Shown: positions 2,389 through 21,399 of the stretch, piece after piece
Numbering within the stretch: the first letter of the stretch is position 1
How the letters are laid out: each line of letters starts with the position of its first letter
Virus record (IMG/VR): IMGVR_UViG_3300017788_000209
Coordinates: 1 to 21,399 of that record
Source: a virus
Direction: 5' to 3' (one strand)
DNA length: 21,399 bases
The notes under the pieces: generated by a model
What the model saw: only the letters and a program-made list of their open reading frames with translations
What the model was told of the DNA's origin: nothing
Database searches by the model: none
Position numbers and translations under genes: made by a program

Positions 2389-3204
2389 ATGATAGCTACA
2401 ATGAAACTGGTGTTTGCCAACAATCAGGTTTTTGATCTTGGCTTGTATTCTAGTGCGCTTGCCGATGTCTACAAGAAAATTTACAAACATCTCTGTCATG
2501 TGGAATTGCGATTCCGCCCTTGGGACAATCCCTATTACCTTGACAGTTTGACACATGAGCAGGTGGTTGATCAGCTGACCTTTTATGGCAGTCAGGTGTG
2601 CGTGACCGTTGATCGATCCAGGTGTATGGCTCGCGATCAGCAGTATCTAAATCAACTGCATAAAATTTATGAAGACAACTATCAAGGACAACCACAGTGG
2701 CTTGACTATCACGAGCATGTTCATCTTTGCGAGCCCAGAGTTGGGCTGAAATTCAAAGTTTTAGAAATTGACTTTAGAGAAAAAGCAGGCTTGTTGGAAC
2801 GACAGTTTGATCCAGCGTGGCTTGAGCACAGCACCACGCAGGTAAAGGCAGGAGATGTCTATGTCACCTGGGCTGAGTTGGGAAAGACTCCTTATCGATA
2901 TTGGAAAGATCAGGAGCCAGAGGATATCAAACGCATGTGTGTATTGGCCAAACCTTGGCTCAAATTGCGACCCAAGATTAAAATCGCCATGCAAGACATA
3001 GACCTGTTGGACAACCCTGACATAGAAGCTTTTGAGTCATGGTGGAAAACCTACGAGCGTGAGTGGTGCAATCATTGGCATCTATCGTCGTGGTCAGTGC
3101 AGGATATTTTTGCGCATTCAGTATTTGGACATATAGAAAACTTGCGCACAATAAAATCTCTATTGCAAAGTGGAGTCAGTCCTGTTGGGATATCGATCAC
3201 GTGA
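2389..3204 (+). CDS. conserved-looking phage protein of unknown function
   Basis: A 271-residue soluble protein I do not recognise. It is rich in Trp, Tyr and His (for example WLDYHEHVHLCEP near 104-116 and WWKTYEREWCNHWHLSSW near 218-235), with no membrane segment, Walker motif or metal cluster I can name. The C-terminus (LKSLLQSG.. type, ending GVSPVGISIT) looks like a short helical tail. ATG 2389 is chosen because the promoter's -10 box lies seven bases upstream; a second in-frame ATG at 2401 is possible. It overlaps the next gene by four bases (GTGA), so it is the first member of a coupled three-gene unit that ends in a 2-oxoglutarate oxygenase. Confidence 0.72.
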   Translation: MIATMKLVFANNQVFDLGLYSSALADVYKKIYKHLCHVELRFRPWDNPYYLDSLTHEQVVDQLTFYGSQVCVTVDRSRCMARDQQYLNQLHKIYEDNYQGQPQWLDYHEHVHLCEPRVGLKFKVLEIDFREKAGLLERQFDPAWLEHSTTQVKAGDVYVTWAELGKTPYRYWKDQEPEDIKRMCVLAKPWLKLRPKIKIAMQDIDLLDNPDIEAFESWWKTYEREWCNHWHLSSWSVQDIFAHSVFGHIENLRTIKSLLQSGVSPVGISIT

Positions 3205-4343
3205 CATGGCCTGTGGTGATCAAAGCAGGTGCCAGCTTACATCAAACGCTGGCTACCGTAAGGTTTGACCGTTGGGGATCCCCCACCCAGCAAACTGTAT
3301 TTGTCTGCGATACATGGCCAGCTGGACTGACCTGGGCCAAAGACCAAGGGCATCGTCATGCATTGTTTGTCAACAGCGGTACAGTATTCACTAATTGGGA
3401 TGATTTCTGTCAGCTGGTCAACAACTACCCGCATCAAGGATTGATTGGACATCTTATCGCTCGTGCTGACACACCGCTGTACCTGGATGATCAGTGTTGG
3501 TTCATGGACCTTGATCTATTTGATGTTAGTGATTGGTCTGCCACGCATGTGTGTCATCCTCAAGCAGTGCGAAGTGAACAGAACTTGCATGACGACTACA
3601 CACCTTTGTGGGTACGGCCAGGCGCGGTATCTGCAACCGTCGAGATCAGTCATTTTACTCAAGTGTGGATCGCCCGACAACTTAACCTCAACCGGCTGAT
3701 CGTTAACTGGAACAATGCCTGTAGAGATATCAAACACTACATGTACGACAATCAGTTGCCCAAAAACATGTTCCGGGACTATGATGATCTGGCCACGAAT
3801 CAACTGTGGTTGTTTAACAATGAACCAATGGTTATGATCAATCAACCTTGTTTGGTTTCTCCAGGCTCAGGTCTGTCGTGGATATTAAATATTATCCAAC
3901 CTCGGACAGAACGCATGCACATGGTAGACATCAGTCGAGCACAAATAAACTTTTGCCAGCACCTGTGGCAACACTGGGATGGAACTGACTATGGCACAGT
4001 GGCCTGGAATTTTGTGCAAGAAAATAACATAATCCATTGCCAATTCGATCGAACTGATCTATCTGCCATGGATCGTGCCAGGCTGAAAGGCCGGACCAGA
4101 TTCATTGACTATGTCAACACGGTGTTCGCAAAACTGGTACCTGATACGTTTAGTGAGCAATGGCAACAGGCAAGACGTGACAAAACTGTTGTCTTCTATA
4201 ATGACAGTTTGCTTGATTGGGTGATCAACAATACTGCTGTGGACTATGACCATGTGTGGGAATCAAATGTCCTTGATTACAAGTGGACTCTGTTGCATTC
4301 TACACCTGAGCAATTTGAATTGTACAAGGCTCGACGCCGATGA
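3201..4343 (+). CDS. unknown protein; possible glycosyltransferase-like plus methyltransferase-like halves
   Basis: A 380-residue protein when started at the GTG at 3201, which overlaps the upstream stop codon as GTGA; the frame stays open further upstream inside the previous gene, but a coupled start is more plausible. The N-terminal half has alternating strands and a WFMDLDLFD segment whose D-x-D resembles the metal site of GT-A glycosyltransferases. The second half has CLVSPGSGLSW followed by MHMVDISRAQINFC and a WDG.DY segment, a pattern like the glycine loop and acidic strand end of class I SAM-dependent methyltransferases. Both readings are weak and rest on short motifs. ATGA overlap with the oxygenase gene downstream suggests the products act in one modification pathway. 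Confidence 0.7.
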   Translation: MTWPVVIKAGASLHQTLATVRFDRWGSPTQQTVFVCDTWPAGLTWAKDQGHRHALFVNSGTVFTNWDDFCQLVNNYPHQGLIGHLIARADTPLYLDDQCWFMDLDLFDVSDWSATHVCHPQAVRSEQNLHDDYTPLWVRPGAVSATVEISHFTQVWIARQLNLNRLIVNWNNACRDIKHYMYDNQLPKNMFRDYDDLATNQLWLFNNEPMVMINQPCLVSPGSGLSWILNIIQPRTERMHMVDISRAQINFCQHLWQHWDGTDYGTVAWNFVQENNIIHCQFDRTDLSAMDRARLKGRTRFIDYVNTVFAKLVPDTFSEQWQQARRDKTVVFYNDSLLDWVINNTAVDYDHVWESNVLDYKWTLLHSTPEQFELYKARRR

Positions 4344-8947: not shown

Positions 8948-9527
8948 CTCAGACATTGATATTGACTTCGCTAACAGAGAACAGATACTTGGCCACATAA
9001 TTCATGTGCCAGCCAGCATGCTCCGTGACGGAAAGTTTGTAGCGCACAACACCGGTATCTATGCCACAGCAGTTCCACAAGATCCGTTTACTGGACTTTG
9101 CAGTATAGATTATGAACAAGCGGAACAGCGTGGATACGTAAAACTGGATCTGCTCAATGTAAGTCTGTATCGGCAAGTTCGTGACGAAGCGCATCTACTG
9201 GAGCTGATGCAGCATGCTCCAGACTGGCAGCGTTTCAATATCGATCGGGAGTTTTTTGAACAGCTGATGCATGTGAACAGCCACTGGGATCTCTTGAAAA
9301 AGATGCCTGAGCCAGTGGATACTGTGGCTCGTTTGGCCATGTTCTTGGCCGTAATACGCCCGGCAAAGAGATATCTAGTAGGACGCACGTGGAAAGAAGT
9401 AGCGGATGAAGTGTGGACCAGGCCAGTGGATGATGCATACTTTTTCAAGAAAAGCCATTCGCTGGCCTATGCGCATCTAGTGGTCGTGAATATGAATCTA
9501 ATCAGTCTTGCGGACCAAAACAATTGA
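8937..9527 (+). CDS. miniature DNA polymerase III alpha-like protein (C-family catalytic core only)
   Basis: A 196-residue protein that aligns by eye, in order, with landmarks of bacterial Pol III alpha. SDIDIDFANREQIL (5-18) matches the PDFDVDF..RDQVI motif with catalytic Asp pair D8/D10. AHNTGIYATAVP (36-47) matches KHAGGVVIAP. RGYVKLDLLNV (66-75) matches LVKFDFLGL with the third catalytic Asp, D71. HVNSHWDLLKKM (112-123) matches the LESRGMKDLIKRL region, MFLAVIRPAK (135-144) matches ALVALFRPGP, and FKKSHSLAYAHL (170-181) matches NKSHSAAYALV. Missing are the PHP domain, much of palm and fingers including the YQEQ segment, the clamp-binding and OB regions; E. coli alpha has about 1160 residues. 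The start has an AAGGA ribosome site. Whether it polymerises, regulates or has another job is unknown. Confidence 0.82.
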   Translation: MKFNSDIDIDFANREQILGHIIHVPASMLRDGKFVAHNTGIYATAVPQDPFTGLCSIDYEQAEQRGYVKLDLLNVSLYRQVRDEAHLLELMQHAPDWQRFNIDREFFEQLMHVNSHWDLLKKMPEPVDTVARLAMFLAVIRPAKRYLVGRTWKEVADEVWTRPVDDAYFFKKSHSLAYAHLVVVNMNLISLADQNN

Positions 9528-9875
9528 TCTGCGTTTGGTTTTCTTGGCTGCGATTTCTTTCAGACTCACATACGGCCCAAACGGGATTTCAACATCTCTG
9601 CTGTTCATGGTCTTGAGGCAATAACGGAACTGTTTCCAGTCGTGACGTAAAAACACATTGATTGGAATGGTGCGATTGCTTTCCCACCACCATATTTCGC
9701 CTAGGTTTAAGAACGTGTGTTTTTCTGCTTCGGTGCGCAACATCGCATAGTCGTAGATGCAGGTCAGCATATCATCCACGTTTTGCACGATACCTATATA
9801 TTCGTTGCCGCCGTAGACTACATAACTTAGGAATGGATATTTTTTACAAAAGTCTTTTAAGATATCTTCTGACAC
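9498..9875 (-). CDS. lone minus-strand protein of unknown function
   Basis: A 125-residue protein on the minus strand, beginning at a GTG (the only usual start codon before an in-frame stop). It has GEIWWWESNRTIPINVFL in the middle and a basic tail AAKKTKRRSIVLVRKTD. No known domain. No better plus-strand frame fills 9528-9958, which supports it. Its 3' end overlaps that of the mini-polymerase by 30 bases, tail to tail, and it diverges from the primase gene. A GGTAAATA box on its own strand (plus-strand positions 9900-9907) about 25 bases upstream of the GTG could be a late-type promoter, weakly supported. Confidence 0.68.
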   Translation of the reverse strand: MSEDILKDFCKKYPFLSYVVYGGNEYIGIVQNVDDMLTCIYDYAMLRTEAEKHTFLNLGEIWWWESNRTIPINVFLRHDWKQFRYCLKTMNSRDVEIPFGPYVSLKEIAAKKTKRRSIVLVRKTD

Positions 9876-9958: not shown

Positions 9959-11032
9959 ATGAATGATCTCATCCAACAGGAACTGATATCGCTGCTGCCG
10001 GCACGTAGAAAACGTACCGGAGACTGGATCAGTTTCAATGCTGTGTGCTGCCCCCACAATGGAGAAACACCGGACACCCGCGGGCGTGGAGGTGTGCGTC
10101 CAAACAGTGATGGCAGCGTGAGCTATCACTGTTTCAACTGCGGGTTCAAAACAGGATTCTATCCGGGACGACCACTCAGCTACAAGTTCCGCCGGCTGCT
10201 GGGTTGGTTTGGCGCAGATGAAAACCAACTGCAGAGGCTCACGCTCGAAGCTCTGCGTATTAGAGAAATCACGCCGATAGAATCGCATGTGGCACCCCCA
10301 CCTGTGGAGATTTCGTTCAAAGCACGCGGACTTCCTGACAACAGCTCATCCATGAGAGAAAAATGTTTCCAACTGGCGCATGATGCAGTTGGTATAGAAC
10401 AATTGCAGGACTCACAACTGATACAGGCCGCGGACTATCTCAACAGCCGTCGTATGGGCCTGGACAGCTATGATTTTTATCTCACGCCAGATACCAGTTA
10501 CAACCTGCATCGCCGTATCATCATTCCTTTTTATTGGCAAGGCGGATTGATAGGTTACACTGCGCGAGCAGTTGATCCTGGTATACGACCAAAATATCAC
10601 AGCAGTTATGAACCCAACTATGTGTTTAATCTGGACAGACAGCAGCCAGATGCCAAGTTCGTGATAGTTACAGAAGGTCCTTTTGATGCCATGGGCATAG
10701 ACGGTGTGGCAGTACTGAGCAACAGCATCAGCGAAGTGCAAGCAGACATCATCGATTCTCTGGGCCGCGAAGTGATAGTGGTACCGGATTTTGATGCAGA
10801 GATGGACGAACGAACAGGTAAAAAGAAATGGTCTGGACGAGCACTAGTTGATGCTGCGCTGGAGTATGGGTGGAGCGTGAGTTTCCCAGAGTGGTACGAG
10901 CGGTGCAAGGATACGGCAGACGCTGTGGCTCGTTATGGCCCGCTGTTTACCCTGGCCACTATCTTGCGCGGCAAAGAGACGAGCGCATTAAAGATAGAAC
11001 TCAAGAGAAAAACAATATATAATAAACTATGA
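9959..11032 (+). CDS. 61: DNA primase, gp61/DnaG-type with zinc-binding and Toprim domains
   Basis: A 357-residue primase. The N-terminal zinc-binding domain has C31-x-H33 (CCPHNGE) paired with C58-x2-C61 (HCFNCGF). The Toprim domain begins at FVIVTEGPFDA with the catalytic Glu E239 and continues to VVPDFDAE with D277 and D279, the metal-binding DxD. NLHRRIIIPFYW and GYTARA in between are typical of the polymerase core. Length agrees with T4 gp61 (342 residues). It makes RNA primers on the lagging strand together with the helicase encoded next. ATG 9959 is preferred over a TTG at 9923, because 9923 is part of the promoter. The stop codon overlaps the helicase start (ATGA), so primase and helicase are made together. 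Confidence 0.93.
   Translation: MNDLIQQELISLLPARRKRTGDWISFNAVCCPHNGETPDTRGRGGVRPNSDGSVSYHCFNCGFKTGFYPGRPLSYKFRRLLGWFGADENQLQRLTLEALRIREITPIESHVAPPPVEISFKARGLPDNSSSMREKCFQLAHDAVGIEQLQDSQLIQAADYLNSRRMGLDSYDFYLTPDTSYNLHRRIIIPFYWQGGLIGYTARAVDPGIRPKYHSSYEPNYVFNLDRQQPDAKFVIVTEGPFDAMGIDGVAVLSNSISEVQADIIDSLGREVIVVPDFDAEMDERTGKKKWSGRALVDAALEYGWSVSFPEWYERCKDTADAVARYGPLFTLATILRGKETSALKIELKRKTIYNKL
11016..11023 (+). promoter_or_regulatory. weak -10-like box before the helicase gene
   Basis: TATATAAT at 11016-11023, just before ATG 11029, repeats the -10-to-start spacing seen elsewhere (TATATA ends eight positions before the A of the start codon). No convincing -35 box is seen 16-18 bases upstream, so independent transcription of the helicase is only a possibility. 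Confidence 0.3.
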
Positions 11033-12435
11033 CCAAAGAATACAACGTCAGCATACAAAAACTGTTCCTAGAGATGATGTTGCACGATGCACAGAACTTT
11101 GTGCGAGTGCAGAATATCTACAACGAAGAAAATTTCGATCGCAGCCTGAGATCTGTCGCCAAGTTTATCAAAGAGCACAGCAACAATCACAGGACCTTGC
11201 CTACCCTGGACCAGATACAGGCAGTGACAGGCCTAGAGCTCAAAGCACTGCCAGACATCACTGAAGGGCATCATGAATGGTTCCTAGGCGAGTTTGAGAG
11301 TTTTACCAAGCAAAAAGAACTGGAACGAGCCATCCTCAAAGCAGCGGACATGCTGGAGAAAGGCGAGTTTGATCCAGTAGAAAAACTGATCAAGGACGCT
11401 GTGCAGATCTCGCTTACCAAGGATCTTGGCACAGACTTCTGGTTGGATCCTGAGGGCATGCTGACCAAGTATTTTGATGCAGGTGGACAAGTGTCAACAG
11501 GTTGGCCACAGTTGGACAAGCTATTATACGGCGGGTTTTCACGTGGCGAGCTCAACATCTTTGCGGGCGGATCTGGATCAGGCAAAAGTCTCGTGATGAT
11601 GAACATAGCACTCAACTGGGTGCAGGCAGGCTTGCATGGTGTGTACGTCACGTTGGAACTGAGCGAAGAGCTCACGGGACTGCGAACCACGGCCATGCTA
11701 ACGAACATGAGCACCAAGGACATCCGCCGGGACAAACAGACTGCTGCGCTCAAGGTCAAGATGGTGGGCAAAAAGGCTGGCAGCTATCAGGTCAAAGCCT
11801 TGCCCGCGCAGAGCAACATCAATGACATCCGTGCGTTCTTGAAAGAATATCAGATCCAGACCGGCCGCCGGGTGGATTTTATCATGATCGATTATCTGGA
11901 CCTGCTCATGCCCGTGAGTGCCAAGGTCAGTCCCAATGACTTGTTTGTAAAAGACAAATACGTTTCAGAAGAACTGCGCAATCTCAGCAAAGAGCTGGGG
12001 GTGCTCATGGTCACTGCCAGTCAGCTGAATCGTGGTGCAGTGGACGAAATCGAGTTTGATCACAGCCATATTTCCGGTGGTATCTCGAAGATTAACACAG
12101 CAGATAATGTGTTTGGTATTTTCACTTCAAGAGCCATGCGTGAGCGTGGACGTTATCAAATCCAGTGCATGAAAAGCCGTAGTTCAACTGGTGTAGGCAA
12201 CAAGATCGATCTTGAATACAACGTGGAGACCATGCGCATCACGGATCCGGGCGAAGATGCTAATATACAGCAACCACATGCCAGCAGCATCATGAACCAG
12301 ATCAAGGCCAGATCCACAGTGGAACGCACAGACCCGGACACCGGAGAAGTCAGCGAATCCGCGCCGATCAAGACAGAAATGGGCAGTAACAAGCTCAAGA
12401 GCATGCTAGCGAACATAAAGGCGCAGGCGCGGTGA
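11029..12435 (+). CDS. 41: replicative DnaB-like helicase, T4 gp41-type
   Basis: A 468-residue RecA-fold hexameric helicase. The N-terminal part (1-130) is helical, as in the DnaB/gp41 N-domain that contacts primase. The C-domain begins near TGWPQLDKLLYGGFSRGELNIFAG, a DnaB signature. Walker A is GGSGSGKS (180-187), LELSEE (209-214) carries the catalytic-Glu region, Walker B is FIMIDYLDL (284-292), SQLNRG (331-336) is motif H3/H4-like, and MKSRSSTG (381-388) is near the arginine finger region. T4 gp41 has 475 residues, so this is full length. It unwinds the fork 5' to 3' and forms the primosome with the primase coupled upstream by ATGA. It ends the early/middle replication block. Confidence 0.95.
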   Translation: MTKEYNVSIQKLFLEMMLHDAQNFVRVQNIYNEENFDRSLRSVAKFIKEHSNNHRTLPTLDQIQAVTGLELKALPDITEGHHEWFLGEFESFTKQKELERAILKAADMLEKGEFDPVEKLIKDAVQISLTKDLGTDFWLDPEGMLTKYFDAGGQVSTGWPQLDKLLYGGFSRGELNIFAGGSGSGKSLVMMNIALNWVQAGLHGVYVTLELSEELTGLRTTAMLTNMSTKDIRRDKQTAALKVKMVGKKAGSYQVKALPAQSNINDIRAFLKEYQIQTGRRVDFIMIDYLDLLMPVSAKVSPNDLFVKDKYVSEELRNLSKELGVLMVTASQLNRGAVDEIEFDHSHISGGISKINTADNVFGIFTSRAMRERGRYQIQCMKSRSSTGVGNKIDLEYNVETMRITDPGEDANIQQPHASSIMNQIKARSTVERTDPDTGEVSESAPIKTEMGSNKLKSMLANIKAQAR

Positions 12436-12496: not shown

Positions 12497-12760
12497 TTGC
12501 TGAAAAAAACCCGTAGCATATTGGAAGAGCTGGATAGCCATTTTCTTGAAAAAGACAAGGAAAACGTGCTGGAAAGTCGTGCTGATCATGTGATACAGGG
12601 TGCTATCAACTTGATTAACACCATACGTGAAAATTACAGCAGTGAGGCAGCAGCCGAACTTGAACGGCGCCTGCTGAACAGTATAAGGGCACAGGATCCT
12701 AATAAATTCGTAAGAGGCATTAGGAGAGTGCGCAGTGAAACTACAACATCTAACAAGTGA
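12497..12760 (+). CDS. small helical protein at the start of the late operon
   Basis: An 87-residue, mostly helical protein started at TTG 12497, with GGAG seven bases upstream (12486-12489). It contains ILEELDSHF, ENVLESRADHVIQGAINLINTI and AAELERRLLNSIRAQDPNKFVRGIRRV, the last a basic helix. No known domain. Similar short proteins seem to occur in environmental T4-like phages without function. Its 3' end overlaps the long structural gene by 26 bases. Its placement under the late-type box suggests a late role, perhaps in assembly. Confidence 0.72.
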   Translation: MLKKTRSILEELDSHFLEKDKENVLESRADHVIQGAINLINTIRENYSSEAAAELERRLLNSIRAQDPNKFVRGIRRVRSETTTSNK

Positions 12761-15521
12761 CGCCGAGCTGGACCTGGCGTCACACCCGCTGTATCAAGAA
12801 GCAGTGGCCTTGGTACGTGAGCTAAACAAGCTCACGGAAGGCAAAGCTCTCGGACGCGACGACATCCACAATCTGTTCAAAGGCGCAGAAGAAGCCATGA
12901 CCACAGGTGGTCAGAACCGCACGGTATTGGGACGAGCAGGCGAGCTGGCTGGCGCCTTGGGCAACAAGATAAAATCTCTAGGCCAAGCCCTGCAGAATAC
13001 CACTGTGATCAAAGGCGTTGATGCCAAGTTTGATGAACTCAAACAGATGGTGGGACAGAGCATGGGCAAGAGTCCAGACGGCTCTCGTGTGCTACGGGCG
13101 CTGGACACCTACAAACAAACAGTCCAACGTTATCCTACTACCAGTAATTTTTTCTGGGGAGTGGCAGGTGTGCTCACAGGTCTGTTGACAAGTGGCGCAG
13201 CGCCAGTGCTGGCTTTAGGTGCGATAAAAATGATCGACGGACTCATGCAAGGCGAGCAGTTTAGCACTGCCGCAGGGCGTGCCACTCGTCCAGTAGGTGC
13301 TGCATTAGGAGCCAAGGCCTTGGCAGGCGCAGCAGATGCAGCCGCACAAGGAATCGATACCGCAGTAGACACTGTGCAGAACATCGACCCAAACAAAATA
13401 AATCCCTTCAAGCCAGACGTGAACCCACCTGGCCCTGACAACGTGAACCCACCTGGCCCCGACAACGTGAACCCACCTGGCCCCGACAATGTTGTGCCTC
13501 CGGGAGTGGAAACACAAACTTACGTGGCCAAACAAGGGGACACCCTGACCGGCATCAGCGCCAAGTTCAAGGTCAATCCAGATGAACTGGCACAGTTAAA
13601 TCCTGGCAAGTTTAGCCCTGACGGTAATCCAAATCTCTTGCAACCGGGCGAACAAATCATACTGCCAAAAAATCCCACCGGTCCTTACACAGGTCCGTAC
13701 AGTGGCGACAATGCCATGACGGCGCAAAATATACAAAACAAAATGGACGCTGGTCAATATGGATCTGATGGCGGCATGGCATCTAAACGTATCGCAGCAG
13801 ATACAGCAGCTCAACCGGCACCTTCTGCACAATCCTCGGCACCTTCTGCACCCTCTGCACAATCCCCAGTACCAGCACCATCCCCAGCACCATCCCAATC
13901 GAATCCGTTTGCTGCCAGAACTATACGTACAGAATCTATCAAGATCAAAGCAGGGCGTGATATCCTAGAAGGATTTGATATTATTACTGCACCTGTTGCA
14001 CAATTGGTTGATCGTCAAGCCACAGTGCGCAAGTGGGCACTAAACGAAAGCCTAAGCCGTGGTGGTCGTAGCATTCAATTGAACGAAGCTGGAGTTCGCA
14101 CAGTGTTTGCCAACCTAGAGCGATTGCATGAATTCGTCATTGATGAAAGACGTCGCAACAACATCGGTCGCGAACGCAGCCGGGCCATGGGCCAGGCAGC
14201 AGGACGCAAAGGGCAAACAGCCCAACAATTTGCACAATCCAATCCGGCTGCGGCAGCAGACATCGCTGCCTCTACTCCGGAACCTGACAGTTACGACCCC
14301 GGTACGAGACGTACCAATGCAGAAAGAGGGAGAACCCAGGCTGATCTAGATCGTGACCAACAAGGCGGCACAGTGCGCAGCCGGCCTGCCAATGCCAACG
14401 ATCCTGCGGCCATGGCCAAGAATGCGAGAACATCAGCTGCCAATACCAGCACCACAGCTGGACCACTGGGCGGGTTGCCTGGCGGAGCAGCACCTGCTGG
14501 TAATACCATGCCTTACTTGGCAGCTAATCCAGAAGGTAAATTCAAGACCACCGGACAAGGTCCTCTAGGCGGCTCAGTCGCTCGCGGTGTTGAAACAGGT
14601 CTCCGTAGATTCAGCAATTGGGCCGGAGACACCTGGCGCGAAGCCACTACTAAGGTAACACTCAACGGCCTGTTGCGTCACTGGAAAGATGCCAAAGAAC
14701 CCAAGGACAGCGACGAAGTGGCTGCTTTTTTAGTTGGCAGGAAAGTTCCGCCAGAGATAGTGAAACAACTGTATCAACAGTTGGGATTCCCTGCACCCAA
14801 CTTGGATGCACCGGCTTCACAAACAGCTGGTTCCGCTGCTGCATCACCTGAAATGACTGATGACCAGGTCATTGCTGCTGCCAATCAAGCCCTTGAGAGA
14901 GGTACAGCAATAACTCCTGAACAAAAAGCGAGACTCGATGCTATCAGACAACGCCAAGGTTTATCCGCGGTAGATATTCCAGTGGCCAGTGCAGACACTA
15001 CAGCACCAGTGGGTACCACCCGAGGTACAAGAACCGCGGCCGCAGGATCCTCTGCAGCACCAGCTGCATCTGTGACCATGGCAGGAGACAACCAACAGTC
15101 ACAGGCCACTGCCATGATACTACCGCAGATAGCCAGAATGACCGGCACTATGTATGCTGACGATCTCATCACTATCATTGACACTGCTCTCAGCGTGTTG
15201 TCACGCAGTGCTCCTACTGCCTATAGAGAAAAGCTGATGCAACTGCGAGGCTCGGCCTCCGGCAAACAAAGAGAACGTGCCGACGACATAATCAAGCGTA
15301 CCAAATCTAAGAAGAAAAAGGCAGCGCCGGCACCGGCCACGTCTACTTTCACTCCACCAAGCGGAACCCCGGTTCCAGACTGGATGTCATCGGGTATGCC
15401 AGAACCGGTCAGAGCCGAAAGCCAGACCAGAGTATATGGCGGAAGATACATACGTGAAAGTGCCGACGCCAGGCTGATTAGAGAGTTTGAAAATTTTGTT
15501 ATAGGATCATTGAAGTCATGA
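12735..15521 (+). CDS. large LysM-containing probable virion protein
   Basis: A 928-residue protein started at GTG 12735. Residues 1-135 are helical. A hydrophobic stretch (about 139-170, FFWGVAGVLTGLL...LALGAIKMIDGL) could enter a membrane. Three NPPGPDNV octapeptides (230-253) lead into a LysM domain (261-311: YVAKQGDTLTGISAKF, PDELAQLNP, LLQPGEQIILP), a peptidoglycan-binding fold. A Pro/Ala/Ser linker (about 355-392) follows, then ordered-looking modules (LLEGFDIITAPVAQLVDRQATVRKW; LSRGGRSIQLNEAGVRTVF; TLNGLLRHWKDAKEPKDSDEVAAFLVGRKVPPEIV) split by low-complexity linkers. No lytic catalytic domain was recognised. A tail or internal virion protein that meets the cell wall or inner membrane on entry is the best inference. 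It is coupled to the next gene by ATGA. Confidence 0.82.
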   Translation: MKLQHLTSDAELDLASHPLYQEAVALVRELNKLTEGKALGRDDIHNLFKGAEEAMTTGGQNRTVLGRAGELAGALGNKIKSLGQALQNTTVIKGVDAKFDELKQMVGQSMGKSPDGSRVLRALDTYKQTVQRYPTTSNFFWGVAGVLTGLLTSGAAPVLALGAIKMIDGLMQGEQFSTAAGRATRPVGAALGAKALAGAADAAAQGIDTAVDTVQNIDPNKINPFKPDVNPPGPDNVNPPGPDNVNPPGPDNVVPPGVETQTYVAKQGDTLTGISAKFKVNPDELAQLNPGKFSPDGNPNLLQPGEQIILPKNPTGPYTGPYSGDNAMTAQNIQNKMDAGQYGSDGGMASKRIAADTAAQPAPSAQSSAPSAPSAQSPVPAPSPAPSQSNPFAARTIRTESIKIKAGRDILEGFDIITAPVAQLVDRQATVRKWALNESLSRGGRSIQLNEAGVRTVFANLERLHEFVIDERRRNNIGRERSRAMGQAAGRKGQTAQQFAQSNPAAAADIAASTPEPDSYDPGTRRTNAERGRTQADLDRDQQGGTVRSRPANANDPAAMAKNARTSAANTSTTAGPLGGLPGGAAPAGNTMPYLAANPEGKFKTTGQGPLGGSVARGVETGLRRFSNWAGDTWREATTKVTLNGLLRHWKDAKEPKDSDEVAAFLVGRKVPPEIVKQLYQQLGFPAPNLDAPASQTAGSAAASPEMTDDQVIAAANQALERGTAITPEQKARLDAIRQRQGLSAVDIPVASADTTAPVGTTRGTRTAAAGSSAAPAASVTMAGDNQQSQATAMILPQIARMTGTMYADDLITIIDTALSVLSRSAPTAYREKLMQLRGSASGKQRERADDIIKRTKSKKKKAAPAPATSTFTPPSGTPVPDWMSSGMPEPVRAESQTRVYGGRYIRESADARLIREFENFVIGSLKS
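13419..13490 (+). repeat. three tandem copies of a 24-base coding repeat
   Basis: Copies at 13419-13442, 13443-13466 and 13467-13490 begin GTGAACCCACCTGGCCC and differ by single bases. Each encodes VNPPGPDN, a Pro/Gly-rich flexible spacer just before the LysM domain. A degenerate fourth unit (VVPPGV) follows. In-frame gain or loss of units by slippage would alter spacer length without breaking the gene. Confidence 0.93.
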
Positions 15522-16291
15522 AATTGCACGAAGGTGGTAACGCCATCCCCAATAGCATTCCTGTAGCCAAAAAAGACGTCGCTAAAGTAGTAGGCGAGGT
15601 GCGGTCTGCGCTGCCACCTGCCTTGGTAGGTCGCATGCAGATAGACATAGGCAGTGCTGGATACAAAGTAGAAAGCGGAGACATCGATGTCATGGTAGAA
15701 GCCGATGACGTGGTAGCTCTGTTTCAAACACAAAATGAAAAAGAACCGGTCAAAGCAGGAAAAAAAGCCCTTGAGAACTTTTTCCGTGCCAAAGGTTTTG
15801 AAGGGTGCGTGACCAAAGGCAACAACGTGCATGTGGGAGTTCCATATAAAGATGCTCTAGCACAGGTAGACGTCATGGTGATAGGTGATGCTGCCTTGGT
15901 AGCTCCTTACCATCAGCACGGGCCACGCGGTAGCTATGATGATCCTGACTTTGTTGGCAATGCTATATTCATACTCATGAACAGCATAGGCAAGCCATTG
16001 GGTCTGAAGTTTGATGCATTTGGTGCCAAGCTCATGCGCAGGGAAGACAACGCTGTGGTAGCCAGAGATCGCGACAGCGTGGCTAAGATCTTGCTTAACC
16101 CACGAGCTACCGGCGACGACCTCAACAGCGTAAAATCCATCATGCGAGCATTGGCAAACGATCCCATGCGAGACGAAAAGCTGGCACAGGCTCGCGATGA
16201 TGAAGCCAAGGGTTTAATCATGTTGCCTAAAAAGCTAGAAGAAGGATCTCCCAGCTGGTTCCGTGCCATGCAATCCCTACTGGTACGCTAA
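15518..16291 (+). CDS. nucleotidyltransferase-fold protein (pol-beta superfamily), first of two
   Basis: A 257-residue protein with the pol-beta nucleotidyltransferase signature. IDIGSAGYK (42-50) is the hG[GS] turn, ESGDIDVMV (52-60) supplies metal ligands D55 and D57, and AQVDVMVIGD (115-124) supplies the third Asp D118. Spacing fits the superfamily, so the active site looks intact. The C-terminal half (GNAIFILMNSIGKPLGLKFDAFGAKLM and a helical tail) is not recognised. Such enzymes move a nucleotide onto RNA, protein or a small molecule; the acceptor here is unknown. It is joined to the structural gene before it by ATGA and to the next nucleotidyltransferase-like gene by TAATG, in an operon without gaps. 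Confidence 0.8.
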   Translation: MKLHEGGNAIPNSIPVAKKDVAKVVGEVRSALPPALVGRMQIDIGSAGYKVESGDIDVMVEADDVVALFQTQNEKEPVKAGKKALENFFRAKGFEGCVTKGNNVHVGVPYKDALAQVDVMVIGDAALVAPYHQHGPRGSYDDPDFVGNAIFILMNSIGKPLGLKFDAFGAKLMRREDNAVVARDRDSVAKILLNPRATGDDLNSVKSIMRALANDPMRDEKLAQARDDEAKGLIMLPKKLEEGSPSWFRAMQSLLVR

Positions 16292-17421
16292 TGAAATCCA
16301 GAGATTTTGTTATCGAAAAGCGTCGCAAAAAACCTGCACGATTTGCCTACGGAGGATATTGGTATCCTGGGTTCGCTCACTCGGGAGACAGCGCAGGCGA
16401 TGGCGGCGGTGGCGAAAGTGTACGCGAAGGAGGGTGGGATACTACTGCCACACAAAACACAGTGATCACTCCTGCTGTGGTCAAAGCATCTCTTAACGTG
16501 GTACAACAGTTTGTTACAGATTTCAATGCTTGGCTAGCACCACAAGGCCAAGGTCCGGTACAAATGGGTCGTCCTACAGGCAGCAGTGCATATCATGCAG
16601 CAGATGCTAAAGATGATCCAGAAAAAGTCTATGGTGATGTGGACCTGCAGATGATAGCACCTCCTGTTGAAGGATTAACGTACGGTCAGTTCACTAGTTT
16701 TTGGAATAGATTGGCCGACGAGTTTGTGAAAGAAAACAATCCTGCCTATGTGCTGCAAACAGAAAGCAAGCCAGGACATCCTATTTTAGCCATTGGTAAC
16801 AACGCCTACGTACAAGTTGATTTCATGTGGCACGAGCCCGGCATGAGCAAGTGGGGCGCTACCAGAGTCACGCCCGAACGCGGTACCAAAGGTTTACTGT
16901 TTGGCAACATGTGGAGTGTGTTTGGTGAGTTGTTAAACATGAGCATACAACATGCAGGTGTGCAGCTCAAAGTGATTGACAATGAACGTGTGCCATTCAG
17001 CAAACAAAAAGACACCCAGATCGTCACAGTTACAACCAATCCAGAAACATTCATACTGGACACATTTAGATATCTGGCACAACAGCAGGGCATAGAAAAG
17101 CCGCGCATGGTGCCTGCACTCAAAACCTATGGTGGTGTGCGCATAGAGCAAGTGAGCATTGAAAACATGGTAAAAGGAGTAAAAGCATTTGCCGCCAGTG
17201 CAGAAGCCAATGGCATGTTTGGCCGCGGTGATCTAAAACCGTTTGCCAGTGCAGATGATTTCTTAAATAAATTTTTACAACGCTATGAAGAAAAAGCCAT
17301 GATAGATGTACAGGGCAAAAAACGTGACAAAGCACAAACTCCGGCTGCTATGGCTCGTGCAGAAAATGACAAACAAAAAATACTACAAGGCCTGGAAAAG
17401 GTGCGAGGATATTTCCGATGA
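16291..17421 (+). CDS. nucleotidyltransferase-fold protein (pol-beta superfamily), second of two
   Basis: A 376-residue protein with a second, different nucleotidyltransferase site. MGRPTGSSAYHA (92-103) is the G-S turn, VYGDVDLQMIAP (113-124) gives D116 and D118, and AYVQVDFMWH (172-181) gives the third Asp D177. An N-terminal Gly-rich low-complexity stretch (about 31-49) precedes it, and a basic helical tail (QGKKRDKAQT and beyond) ends it. It is longer than its neighbour and shares only the motif plan, so the pair looks like ancient paralogues or convergent recruitment rather than a recent duplication. It shares one base with the upstream stop codon and an ATGA with the ligase-like gene downstream, so the three proteins should be made in linked amounts. 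Confidence 0.8.
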   Translation: MKSRDFVIEKRRKKPARFAYGGYWYPGFAHSGDSAGDGGGGESVREGGWDTTATQNTVITPAVVKASLNVVQQFVTDFNAWLAPQGQGPVQMGRPTGSSAYHAADAKDDPEKVYGDVDLQMIAPPVEGLTYGQFTSFWNRLADEFVKENNPAYVLQTESKPGHPILAIGNNAYVQVDFMWHEPGMSKWGATRVTPERGTKGLLFGNMWSVFGELLNMSIQHAGVQLKVIDNERVPFSKQKDTQIVTVTTNPETFILDTFRYLAQQQGIEKPRMVPALKTYGGVRIEQVSIENMVKGVKAFAASAEANGMFGRGDLKPFASADDFLNKFLQRYEEKAMIDVQGKKRDKAQTPAAMARAENDKQKILQGLEKVRGYFR

Positions 17422-18560
17422 AGATAACTGAAGTATTTGCTCCGCCTGCTGCGACAATTCTCAAAGAAGGTATAGTGCATCCTGAAGATGCTATCTGGAC
17501 CGACGGAATAGACGGCGCGAAAAGATCAGTAGCAGCTTTGTCTGCCATGAGCCGAGGTAATCAGTTGATCACTATCAAGTGGGACGGTTTTCCAGCTCTG
17601 GTATTTGGCCGCAATGTAGACGGTGAACTCATGGTCACAGACAAACACATGTTTGAAAAGAAAGATGGTAGCGGCCGTGTGACCAGTGCCCAGGCATTCC
17701 AACAGTATGATGTGAATCGTGGCGCTGATCGTAGCGATCTTTATGCCAAGATCAATCTGCTTTGGCCGGCGTTGGAATCTATCATACCAGCCAACTTCCG
17801 TGGATTTTATTTTGGAGACTTGCTCTACGCTGGTCGTCTACAAGCCACAGACGGTTACTATGTATTCCGACCCAACACAGTGACCTACCGTGTGAAAGCA
17901 GATAGTCCAGAAGGCGAACGCATAGGCAATAGCATAGCAGGCATAGCCGTACACAGCTTCATACCCGGTGTAGGAGAACCCGATCAACCTTTGCAAGGGC
18001 TAGGCGGCCTGCCCGCAGACGGAAATCCTGTATGGTTTGTTACCGGTGAGATGCCTGCACCTCGGGTAAAAATTGCAACCACAGACACCTCGGCAGTCAC
18101 GCAGGTGATAGATCAATACGCCGACCACGTGACTGGTTTCCTAGCCGATCTCACCACGCTCAAGGCCAAAGGCATAATTGGGTTGGCCAGCAAGTACATC
18201 ACCAGCAAGATCACCGCAGGCAATTTTGACAACATGTTGGAAGGATTTTACGATTATCTAGCTAACAATCTTTCAGACGCTGCCAAAAACAAACTGCTGG
18301 GTTCTGCGGATCAGCCCGGGTACCTATACCAGCAAGGGCAGCAGGGCCTGCAAGGCATGTTCGCTATCTGGGTAGCATTGTACAATCTCAAGATCAAAGT
18401 CAAACAACAGATTGATGCACAGCAGGCCAGCGGCAACATACAGGCCTATACTGGCAGTGACATTGGTCACGAAGGCTATGTGGTAGGTGGTGGTGCTGAC
18501 AAATTCAAGCTGATCGATCGCCTGGGATTCAGCCGCGCAAACTTCGCGAAAAACACATGA
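17418..18560 (+). CDS. KxDG ligase-like covalent nucleotidyltransferase
   Basis: A 380-residue protein with an ATP-dependent ligase/capping-enzyme-like site. ITIKWDGFPALVFGR (51-65) contains motif I KxDG with candidate adenylated Lys K54. LMVTDKHMFEKK (71-82) resembles the following strand. FRGFYFGDLLYAG (127-139) resembles motif III, though with GD where ligases usually have GE. YYVFRPNTVTYRV (147-159) is a further strand pair as in motif IIIa/IV. The C-terminal 200 residues, with FIPGVGEPDQ and helical runs, are not recognised; no C-terminal OB fold is evident. An RNA- or DNA-ligase-like activity, or protein AMPylation, would all fit. Third of three nucleotidyl-transfer-type proteins in the operon, joined to both neighbours by ATGA. 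Confidence 0.78.
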   Translation: MKITEVFAPPAATILKEGIVHPEDAIWTDGIDGAKRSVAALSAMSRGNQLITIKWDGFPALVFGRNVDGELMVTDKHMFEKKDGSGRVTSAQAFQQYDVNRGADRSDLYAKINLLWPALESIIPANFRGFYFGDLLYAGRLQATDGYYVFRPNTVTYRVKADSPEGERIGNSIAGIAVHSFIPGVGEPDQPLQGLGGLPADGNPVWFVTGEMPAPRVKIATTDTSAVTQVIDQYADHVTGFLADLTTLKAKGIIGLASKYITSKITAGNFDNMLEGFYDYLANNLSDAAKNKLLGSADQPGYLYQQGQQGLQGMFAIWVALYNLKIKVKQQIDAQQASGNIQAYTGSDIGHEGYVVGGGADKFKLIDRLGFSRANFAKNT

Positions 18561-19111
18561 AATATCAGTTCTTACAAGGCGAACTGGTAGAAAGCAGATT
18601 GTTCCGCAGCCCGATGGGTGTGGAAGGTAAAACAGCATCCGAACTGGCCCGGGTGGCTTATCTCATACTGCTGTCCATAGAAATGATACGACAAACCGAC
18701 GAGCCTACTGCGCAGTGGTATTCGGCACTGACCATACAGTTTGGCGATTTTGACAGCATGCGGCCGGGCGCCACCGATCTAGCCAATCTGCTGGCAGTGC
18801 TGAGCAATCAACGCAAGTTTGAGGACCGGATAGAAGCCAATTTTGATATCAGCGCACCAGTGCTACAGATCAAAACTTATCTTAGATCTGTGTGGCAAAG
18901 CAACTGGTGGCACGGGCGCGATAGGCAGACTTTCCTCAACATCGAACACATGTTGAACATCAGCGATACCATGTTGAGCCAGATCAGGCGCATAGTGCTG
19001 GACTGGGATCTCAGCAGTCCAGGAGAACGTCGTGGTGCCATGAGTAATATACGCAGAGAACTAGCTCGCCATGCCCTGCGCATAGACATCATCGATTATC
19101 TGCCAAAATAG
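18557..19111 (+). CDS. helical protein of unknown function ending the late operon
   Basis: A 184-residue, mainly helical protein (ELARVAYLILLSIEMIRQ; DLANLLAVLSNQRKF; IRRELARHALRIDIIDYL) with a Trp-rich centre, RSVWQSNWWHGRDRQTF. The first hydrophobic run is amphipathic rather than a clear membrane segment. No family was recognised. The ATGA overlap with the ligase-like gene makes it the last member of the coupled unit; a new late-type promoter follows within 20 bases of its stop codon. A partner of the nucleotidyltransferase set is a positional guess. Confidence 0.75.
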   Translation: MKYQFLQGELVESRLFRSPMGVEGKTASELARVAYLILLSIEMIRQTDEPTAQWYSALTIQFGDFDSMRPGATDLANLLAVLSNQRKFEDRIEANFDISAPVLQIKTYLRSVWQSNWWHGRDRQTFLNIEHMLNISDTMLSQIRRIVLDWDLSSPGERRGAMSNIRRELARHALRIDIIDYLPK

Positions 19112-21209: not shown

Positions 21210-21399
21210 ATGAAACTGCAAGATATAGCCACAAAACCCACGTCTCGTAAAATCAACCAGATCAATGAAAGCCGTTTTGGCTTCAGCATTGATTACAGTA
21301 ATCTTACCGTGGGCAAGGCCCGTTCGTTGAGCGCAGCTCTGAGCGAAAACCTGTCACGCCTCAAGCAGAATTTTGGCGTACACACAGCCGAAAAAAATC
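21210..21399 (+). CDS. unknown protein, cut by the window end
   Basis: An open frame from ATG 21210 to the window edge (63 complete codons). It begins MKLQDIATKPTSRKINQINE and continues with RFGFSIDYSNLTVGKA and a helix RSLSAALSENLSRLKQNFG. No stop is reached. It follows the previous gene by three bases. The opening resembles other small late genes here that start MK-I/L, but no family can be assigned from the fragment. Confidence 0.7.
   Translation, partial: MKLQDIATKPTSRKINQINESRFGFSIDYSNLTVGKARSLSAALSENLSRLKQNFGVHTAEKN

Follow-up and report, generated by a model that had tools for sequence, protein, structure and literature searches.

The window, i.e., the whole analysed stretch of 21,399 nucleotides (IMG/VR virus record IMGVR_UViG_3300017788_000209), is a 21.4-kb fragment of the genome of an uncultured T4-related phage, and at 15518-18560 it carries three consecutive genes that are the subject of this analysis. 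The first two encode nucleotidyltransferases of the DNA polymerase beta (pol-beta) type, here called NT1 and NT2, and the third a protein of the DUF6267 family. The features of this trio are as follows, with residues numbered within each protein of the given length in amino acids (aa) and with confidence expressed as the predicted local distance difference test score (pLDDT).

15518-16291, plus strand: NT1, a 257-aa pol-beta/Pol X-like nucleotidyltransferase (hGS at residues 45-48; D55/D57 at 15680-15688; D118 at 15869-15871)
15518-15532, plus strand: leader of NT1, MKLHE and then GGN, with a putative capsid-targeting/prohead-protease site between LHE and G
16291-17421, plus strand: NT2, a 376-aa second pol-beta/Pol X-like nucleotidyltransferase (GS97-98; D116/D118 at 16636-16644; D177 at 16819-16821)
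16291-16428, plus strand: N-terminal leader of NT2, residues 1-46, predicted to be disordered (pLDDT <50) and ending in VRE before GGW; motif in 92% of homologs
17418-18560, plus strand: DUF6267 (PF19782) protein, 380 aa, resembling KxDG covalent nucleotidyltransferases/ligases (Pfam E 3.4e-34, residues 21-378; phrog_455)
17418-17468, plus strand: leader of DUF6267, MKITEVFAPPAATILKE followed by G; [LI]xE within residues 3-25 in 92% of 139 homologs
17577-17588, plus strand: motif I KWDG of DUF6267, with K54 as the putative nucleotidyl-lysine; invariant
17814-17819, plus strand: motif III-like GD (G133, D134), in a predicted strand of the model; invariant
18471-18509, plus strand: motif IV EGYV (E352) and the motif V lysine K364; invariant

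The genes are coupled by short overlaps, ATGA between an upstream LysM gene and NT1, TAATG between NT1 and NT2, and ATGA both between NT2 and DUF6267 and between DUF6267 and the next gene (18557). The initial annotation, made from the letters alone, had read three consecutive nucleotidyl-transfer folds in a virion-type operon; its coordinates, frames, TAATG/ATGA couplings and 928-residue LysM protein upstream were all reproduced here.

Homologs of NT1, NT2 and DUF6267 were gathered by scanning viral contigs. Residues G45, G48, D55, D57 and D118 of NT1 are 100% conserved (33-34 homologs), as are G97, S98, D116, D118 and D177 of NT2 (42-45 homologs), and the pol-beta superfamily signature (hG[GS], DxD and a third Asp) is present and invariant in both. 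The initial annotation had named the correct residues (NT1 D55/D57/D118, NT2 D116/D118/D177 and K54 of KWDG), and the Asp sites and K54, whose loss among relatives it regarded as fatal to the idea, are 100% conserved. The fold of NT1 was read from an AlphaFold2 (AF2) model of a relative, the natural NT1-DUF6267 fusion L130 (615 aa), modelled with an alignment that included the window proteins; its mean pLDDT is 92, with low confidence at residues 1-11 and in the linker 263-278. The best PDB matches of L130 in Foldseek are DNA polymerases lambda, mu and beta and TdT (Pol lambda E 3.2e-5, prob 1.0), and since the top 50 listed matches are all polymerases and all lie on the NT1 half, they say nothing on the DUF6267 half. 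NT1 also matches predicted Pol X enzymes of giant viruses in a viral structure library. For NT2, the AF2 model was built on the sequence in the window itself (pLDDT 86.5, with residues 1-47 below 50, i.e., disordered) and matches Pol lambda/beta in the PDB (Pol lambda E 7.2e-4, Foldseek prob 1.0). The template modelling (TM) scores to Pol X targets are modest, 0.3-0.46, for NT1 (via L130) and NT2 alike; therefore, on these models, the two proteins share the overall Pol X fold, yet are not close kin of known Pol X enzymes.

Neither NT1 nor NT2 matched a Pfam or PHROG family, and tblastn of both proteins against known phage records gave no match. PDB sequences were searched both by single sequence and by profile, with nothing relevant among the matches. 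In six phage records searched with the NT1 profile, the only match was in the Agrobacterium phage Atu_ph07, with none in the four cyanophage/pelagiphage/methylophage records. Membership in the RlaP family (PF10127) was rejected, as there was no PF10127 match anywhere in the window and NT1 had no Pfam match, and a bacterial origin of NT2 was rejected as well, the scan of genome contigs having confirmed no case.

Covalent nucleotidyltransferases (ligases and capping enzymes) are defined by motifs I, III, IV and V, and the order KWDG, GDL, EGxV, K in DUF6267 corresponds to these four, with D in motif III where E is usual. Residues K54, D56, G57, G133, D134, E352, G353 and K364 are 100% conserved (41-43 homologs); the initial annotation, which noted KWDG and ligase-like strands, did not name motifs III, IV and V. 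The stretch between motifs III and IV is mostly helical in the secondary structure of the model, and as only 16 residues follow K364, DUF6267 has no C-terminal oligonucleotide-binding (OB) domain or motif VI. Among the matches of the L130 model in the viral library are DUF6267 relatives and giant-virus Pol X proteins, with a weaker match to an RNA ligase of Atu_ph07 (E 5e-3, prob 0.95). The motifs, the predicted order of secondary structure and this one weak structural match weakly suggest a ligase-type fold. Of the three nucleotidyl-transfer folds originally proposed, the pol-beta fold of NT1 and NT2 is thus borne out by the PDB search, and a ligase-type fold of DUF6267 is weakly suggested by motif order and the single weak RNA-ligase match.

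The three genes also keep company. The order NT1-NT2-DUF6267 was found in 83 fetched loci, with NT1 and DUF6267 in a single open reading frame (ORF) in 42 loci (26 non-redundant fusion proteins), and NT1 adjoins DUF6267 in most environmental phages, so the co-occurrence that the initial annotation had put forward as a check is found, to the point of fusion. Elsewhere the order is NT2-NT1-DUF6267, or DUF6267 is fused to a domain matching the HIGH-type phage 'cytidyltransferase' families phrog_3041 and phrog_395. DUF6267 is a conserved hypothetical protein of marine T4-like phages and corresponds to cyanophage cluster T4-GC71 (tblastn, 362 phage records; S-PM2 record), which adjoins T4-GC190, a HIGH-type 'cytitidyltransferase'. 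The resemblance to these cyanophages lies in the same DUF6267 family, in the same position after gp41 and in the adjoining or fused HIGH-type enzyme; unlike the window, the four cyanophage/pelagiphage/methylophage records have no NT1, phage records gave no NT2 match, and the leader of cyanophage DUF6267 is unclear. In cyanophages and pelagiphages, neither NT1 nor NT2 is among the genes that precede DUF6267. In Atu_ph07, an NT1 homolog (E 5e-12) directly adjoins an RNA-ligase-like gene (PF09414, sub-threshold E 0.002), the pair lying downstream of a primase/helicase gene; the arrangement is independent evidence for a tie between the NT1 family and a ligase-type partner, located at the same position in the genome.

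With regard to the partners of DUF6267, an NAD-dependent ligase for which the HIGH domain would recycle nicotinamide mononucleotide was an attractive but unsupported idea, as PF01653 was found in 0/26 records. The genes preceding DUF6267 in cyanophages and pelagiphages can be read, by eye only, as PD-(D/E)XK proteins. The S-PM2 record (L342:5974-7753) has DUF6267 (~190 aa) and the cytidyltransferase annotated as separate genes, whereas BFVD entry A0A0M6VVW4, also from S-PM2, is a cytidyltransferase-like protein of 591 aa with a match to the fusion model across ~400 columns, a discrepancy possibly due to a frameshift or sequencing difference. In the Pelagibacter phage HTVC008M, gp129 (L283:9700-10362) begins MIPFILKE before G and lies between DUF6267 and a HIGH-type nucleotidyltransferase, with an NT5C nucleotidase nearby; it belongs to the P-loop proteins and matches Zeta toxin/AAA_33 and a polynucleotide kinase PHROG (E 8.5e-8).

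In phage T4, the first ten residues of IPIII are enough for packaging into the head, and the protease gp21 cuts after L/I-X-E (PMC9026906). The N-termini of the trio look alike in this respect. Their common pattern starts with Met and a basic residue, continues with a few hydrophobic/acidic residues and runs to [LI]xE followed by Gly, Ala or Ser (e.g., MKIFEILRE before GGW, MRAFEFLTE before S), although the sequences differ between families; for comparison, T4 IPII and IPIII begin MKTYQEFIAE before A and the capsid protein gp24 MAKINELLRE before S. The likeness to T4 IPI, IPII, IPIII and Alt thus concerns a short N-terminal leader running to L/I-X-E before a small residue, and several neighbouring genes with similar leaders. 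For [LI]xE within residues 3-25, the frequencies are 92% for DUF6267 (139 homologs), 87% for NT1 and 88% for NT2. Internal windows of these proteins show it at 7-11% (11% for DUF6267), and at the same loci it is seen in 10% of the gp41 family and 2% of the primase family. The pattern [LIVMF]xE[GASN] occurs in residues 3-25 of 92% of 98 NT1 homologs and in 7% of internal windows. As a control, the strict leader pattern was found in 8/251 T4 genes, among them ipI, ipII, ipIII, gp67 and gp21. On the 245-kb contig G002, it marks 6/12 genes around the trio as compared with 4/255 elsewhere (Fisher p 4e-7).

A leader that serves as a cleavage site would be expected to persist between the enzymes of a fusion. 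The 30 residues before the HxED motif of DUF6267 were inspected in the 26 non-redundant NT1-DUF6267 fusions, which are mutually related and not 26 independent events; [LI]xE is present at the junction in 25/26 (12.1% elsewhere in the same proteins) and [LI]xE[GASN] in 22/26 (1.4% elsewhere). The junction site falls in or beside the only internal disordered stretch, the linker, of the L130 model, and since it is internal, translation initiation is a poor explanation for it. At their own junctions, DUF6267-HIGH fusions have no such [LI]xE site and may therefore stay joined. The apparent link of the leaders to T4 internal head proteins and the persistence of the pattern at the fusion junction are new here. 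Judged by their sequences, the enzyme types among leader-bearing genes appear to be the mixture expected of head cargo.

There is also a published virion link through the HIGH-type partner, as T4-GC190 was detected in purified S-SM1 virions by mass spectrometry (PMC3037559). A gp21-type protease is present in 9/21 contigs and in 4/4 marine isolates. The description of the operon as virion-type proved right for an 87-aa gene that matches a PHROG 'virion structural protein', while the genes further upstream (primase, helicase) belong to replication. Similarly, the initial idea of a joint nucleic-acid pathway tied to the virion gains from the co-occurrence, the fusions, the invariant sites, the leaders and T4-GC190, while its step from a late operon to the virion is weak, and the leader peptides make the stronger case.

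We therefore propose, with a probability of about 45%, that the trio is a head-packaged and injected fill-and-seal repair kit, with RNA as the slightly favoured substrate. According to this proposal, NT1 and NT2 would be Pol X-type enzymes that add missing nucleotides at nucleic-acid ends, and DUF6267 would be a KxDG enzyme that forms a lysyl-nucleotide and then seals the strand. Each of the three would start with a cleavable capsid-targeting leader at its N-terminus and enter the head as the prohead is assembled, where a gp21-type protease would trim it after [LI]xE, with the same cut separating the enzymes in the natural NT1-DUF6267 fusions. Injected along with the phage DNA, the enzymes would repair nucleic acid as soon as infection begins, for example tRNA cut by host defence nucleases. 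We infer the ligase activity of DUF6267, the packaging and injection of all three proteins, and the RNA substrate.

Several points weigh against this proposal. DUF6267 gave no match at E<=1 to ligase profiles (incl. PF01068 and RNA_ligase PF09414), and hhalign of DUF6267 against T4 gp30 and Rnl2 was not significant, although the latter test is without power, because the known pair Rnl2-gp30, its positive control, failed too. In the fold searches, NT1 and NT2 come closest to DNA polymerases (TM to target 0.3-0.46), which points to DNA rather than RNA. The leader of the window's NT2 ends in VRE rather than LxE or IxE, Syn1 and P-RSM6 have a DUF6267 without a clear leader, and in the 168-kb closest relative, contig G001, the enrichment of the strict pattern is modest (3/10 near the trio, 5/213 elsewhere, p 0.003). 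Additionally, the leader statistics come from homologous sequences, which are not independent, and the patterns were picked after the sequences had been seen, for which reason the T4 control and the junction test outweigh the p-values. G001 also gave no match to gp21 (PF03420); T4-type head and tail genes were not found there by the same approach either, so that the head module is missing from this contig or divergent. The undetected gp21 of the closest relative, together with the placement of the genes after the helicase gene, would also suit ordinary cytoplasmic end-repair enzymes made after infection, with the leader being a shared N-terminal feature of some other kind, serving expression or folding. 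We regard this as highly unlikely, because the site is kept inside the fusions, at junctions where translation initiation plays no part, because the helicase and primase families encoded alongside nearly lack the leader, and because T4-GC190 is found in virions.

Concerning the substrate, the same head-delivered kit could serve DNA, with Pol X gap filling and nick sealing of an incoming damaged or restricted genome before phage gene expression. The nearest solved folds of NT1 and NT2 are those of gap-filling family X DNA polymerases, the module adjoins the replicative helicase, and a recognisable DNA ligase was found in 0/4 DUF6267-bearing marine isolates (cyanophages, pelagiphages); the lack of g30 in cyanomyoviruses has been remarked upon (PMC2984593). 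Nevertheless, we consider a DNA kit somewhat unlikely, since 15/21 environmental DUF6267 contigs already carry a gp30-like DNA ligase, DUF6267 has neither a C-terminal OB domain nor motif VI, and the ligase-like gene beside the NT1 homolog in Atu_ph07 belongs to the RNA-ligase type. The idea that DUF6267 is the missing replicative DNA ligase was likewise rejected in general on the 15/21 count, which includes the closest relative G001, and it is possible for cyanophages. RNA is slightly favoured over DNA on account of these same gp30-like ligases, the missing OB domain, the Atu_ph07 neighbour and the precedent of RlaP, a Pol-beta enzyme found with an RNA ligase (PMC7824862). As in the RlaP/RNA-ligase pair, a Pol-beta nucleotidyltransferase is here genetically paired with a putative ATP-dependent ligase-type enzyme, with the same proposed logic of filling and then sealing; unlike it, the trio has two nucleotidyltransferases, no RlaP match, a DUF6267 missed by RNA_ligase profiles, and leaders that suggest head packaging. 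Large eukaryotic DNA viruses encode a family X polymerase and a ligase together, and the paired Pol X-type and ligase-like genes of the trio are similar to such sets, also in that NT1 matches giant-virus predicted Pol X. The sequences are, however, unrelated, and the trio differs further in its putative phage head delivery and in a DUF6267 without the C-terminal OB domain of DNA ligases.

RNA-modifying toxins are among the proteins with a pol-beta fold, and the injected enzymes might, instead of repairing, NMPylate a host protein or RNA in the manner of T4 Alt. This range of the fold speaks for it, as does the case of Alt itself, a modifying enzyme that T4 carries in its head and injects (PMC9026906). 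We find such host tagging quite unlikely, as the top structural matches are polymerases and not toxin or antibiotic-modifying nucleotidyltransferases, and the close tie of NT1 to a ligase-like enzyme better suits end repair. The known head cargo of T4, an anti-restriction protein and an ADP-ribosyltransferase, is unlike the trio. To our knowledge, no polymerase-type or ligase-type head cargo and no fused, internally cleavable cargo protein has been described.

Extending the fill-and-seal proposal beyond the window, we see a substantial chance, if short of even, that environmental T4-related/jumbo phages, and probably marine cyanophages, head-package a multi-enzyme repair set of Pol X-type nucleotidyltransferases, a new KxDG clade (DUF6267) and HIGH-type nucleotidyltransferase or kinase partners, some of it as a polyprotein cut by the prohead protease, so that repair would start as the genome enters. 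DUF6267 is a widespread hypothetical gene of marine T4-like phages, themselves reported without a recognisable DNA ligase. If the proposal is true, DUF6267 would gain a testable identity as an enzyme, along with a partner and a means of delivery, several 'conserved hypotheticals' would be explained together, and phages would be seen to inject repair enzymes, beyond inhibitors. The leader signature would offer a simple sequence rule for spotting injected cargo in uncultured phages.

The neighbouring genes in the window are listed below.

11029-12435, plus strand: gp41-like replicative helicase (DnaB_C E 1e-20), which marks the genomic position of the module
12497-12760, plus strand: 87-aa gene matching PHROG 11854 'virion structural protein' (E 7.1e-18)
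12735-15521, plus strand: LysM protein, 928 aa (PF01476 E 1.8e-8), with LTE before G at the N-terminus
18557-19111, plus strand: 184-aa gene coupled 3' of DUF6267, leader MKYQFLQGELVE followed by S; homologs in close relatives
21210-21398, plus strand, ending at the window edge: gene start with leader MKLQDIATKPTSRKINQINE followed by S; largest leader-positive family that is not a nucleotidyltransferase

The order upstream of the trio is a gp61-like primase, the gp41-like helicase, the 87-aa PHROG 11854 gene and the LysM protein, whose gene is kept upstream of NT1 in close relatives; the gp41-adjacent position of the module is also found in cyanophages, the pelagiphage and Atu_ph07. At 9498-9875 on the minus strand lies a conserved 125-aa gene, which stands between a 196-aa gene and the primase in close relatives too. 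The 426-aa ORF with a GTG start at 3063-4343 overlaps the 271-aa ORF at 2389-3204 by ~140 bases, and its real start probably lies further downstream. Small genes 3' of the module in relatives (cl16 and cl19, e.g., L163:7116-7427) have N-termini that resemble, by eye, the iron-sulphur assembly proteins IscU and IscA.

Leader-bearing genes of other kinds were also noted. A glucosaminidase (L063:10087-10767; PF01832, E 2e-16), i.e., a peptidoglycan hydrolase, starts MRITELLE before A, and a leader-bearing gene at L028:1433 has a weak metallopeptidase match. Five adjacent proteins of Atu_ph07 (46.4-50.6 kb; L351:416-4593) have leaders such as MRWHQLNE and MRWDQLTE, each before A, and a YRG motif; their PHROG family, phrog_11975, also includes L112:4495-5082. 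An ADP-ribosyltransferase reading of these YRG proteins, made by eye, was dropped because Pfam gave no such match. Finally, G001 (the contig of L001) has at 87.9-97 kb (loci L313 and L314) a second run of adjacent leader-like genes with the N-termini MRYNELVNE, MKINEIITE, MRYNELLE, MRYNEIIE, MRYSELIE and MKSLEFLLE, the last protein of which contains VFLDMDGVLCDF and reads like a HAD phosphatase; this run is possibly a second head-cargo operon.

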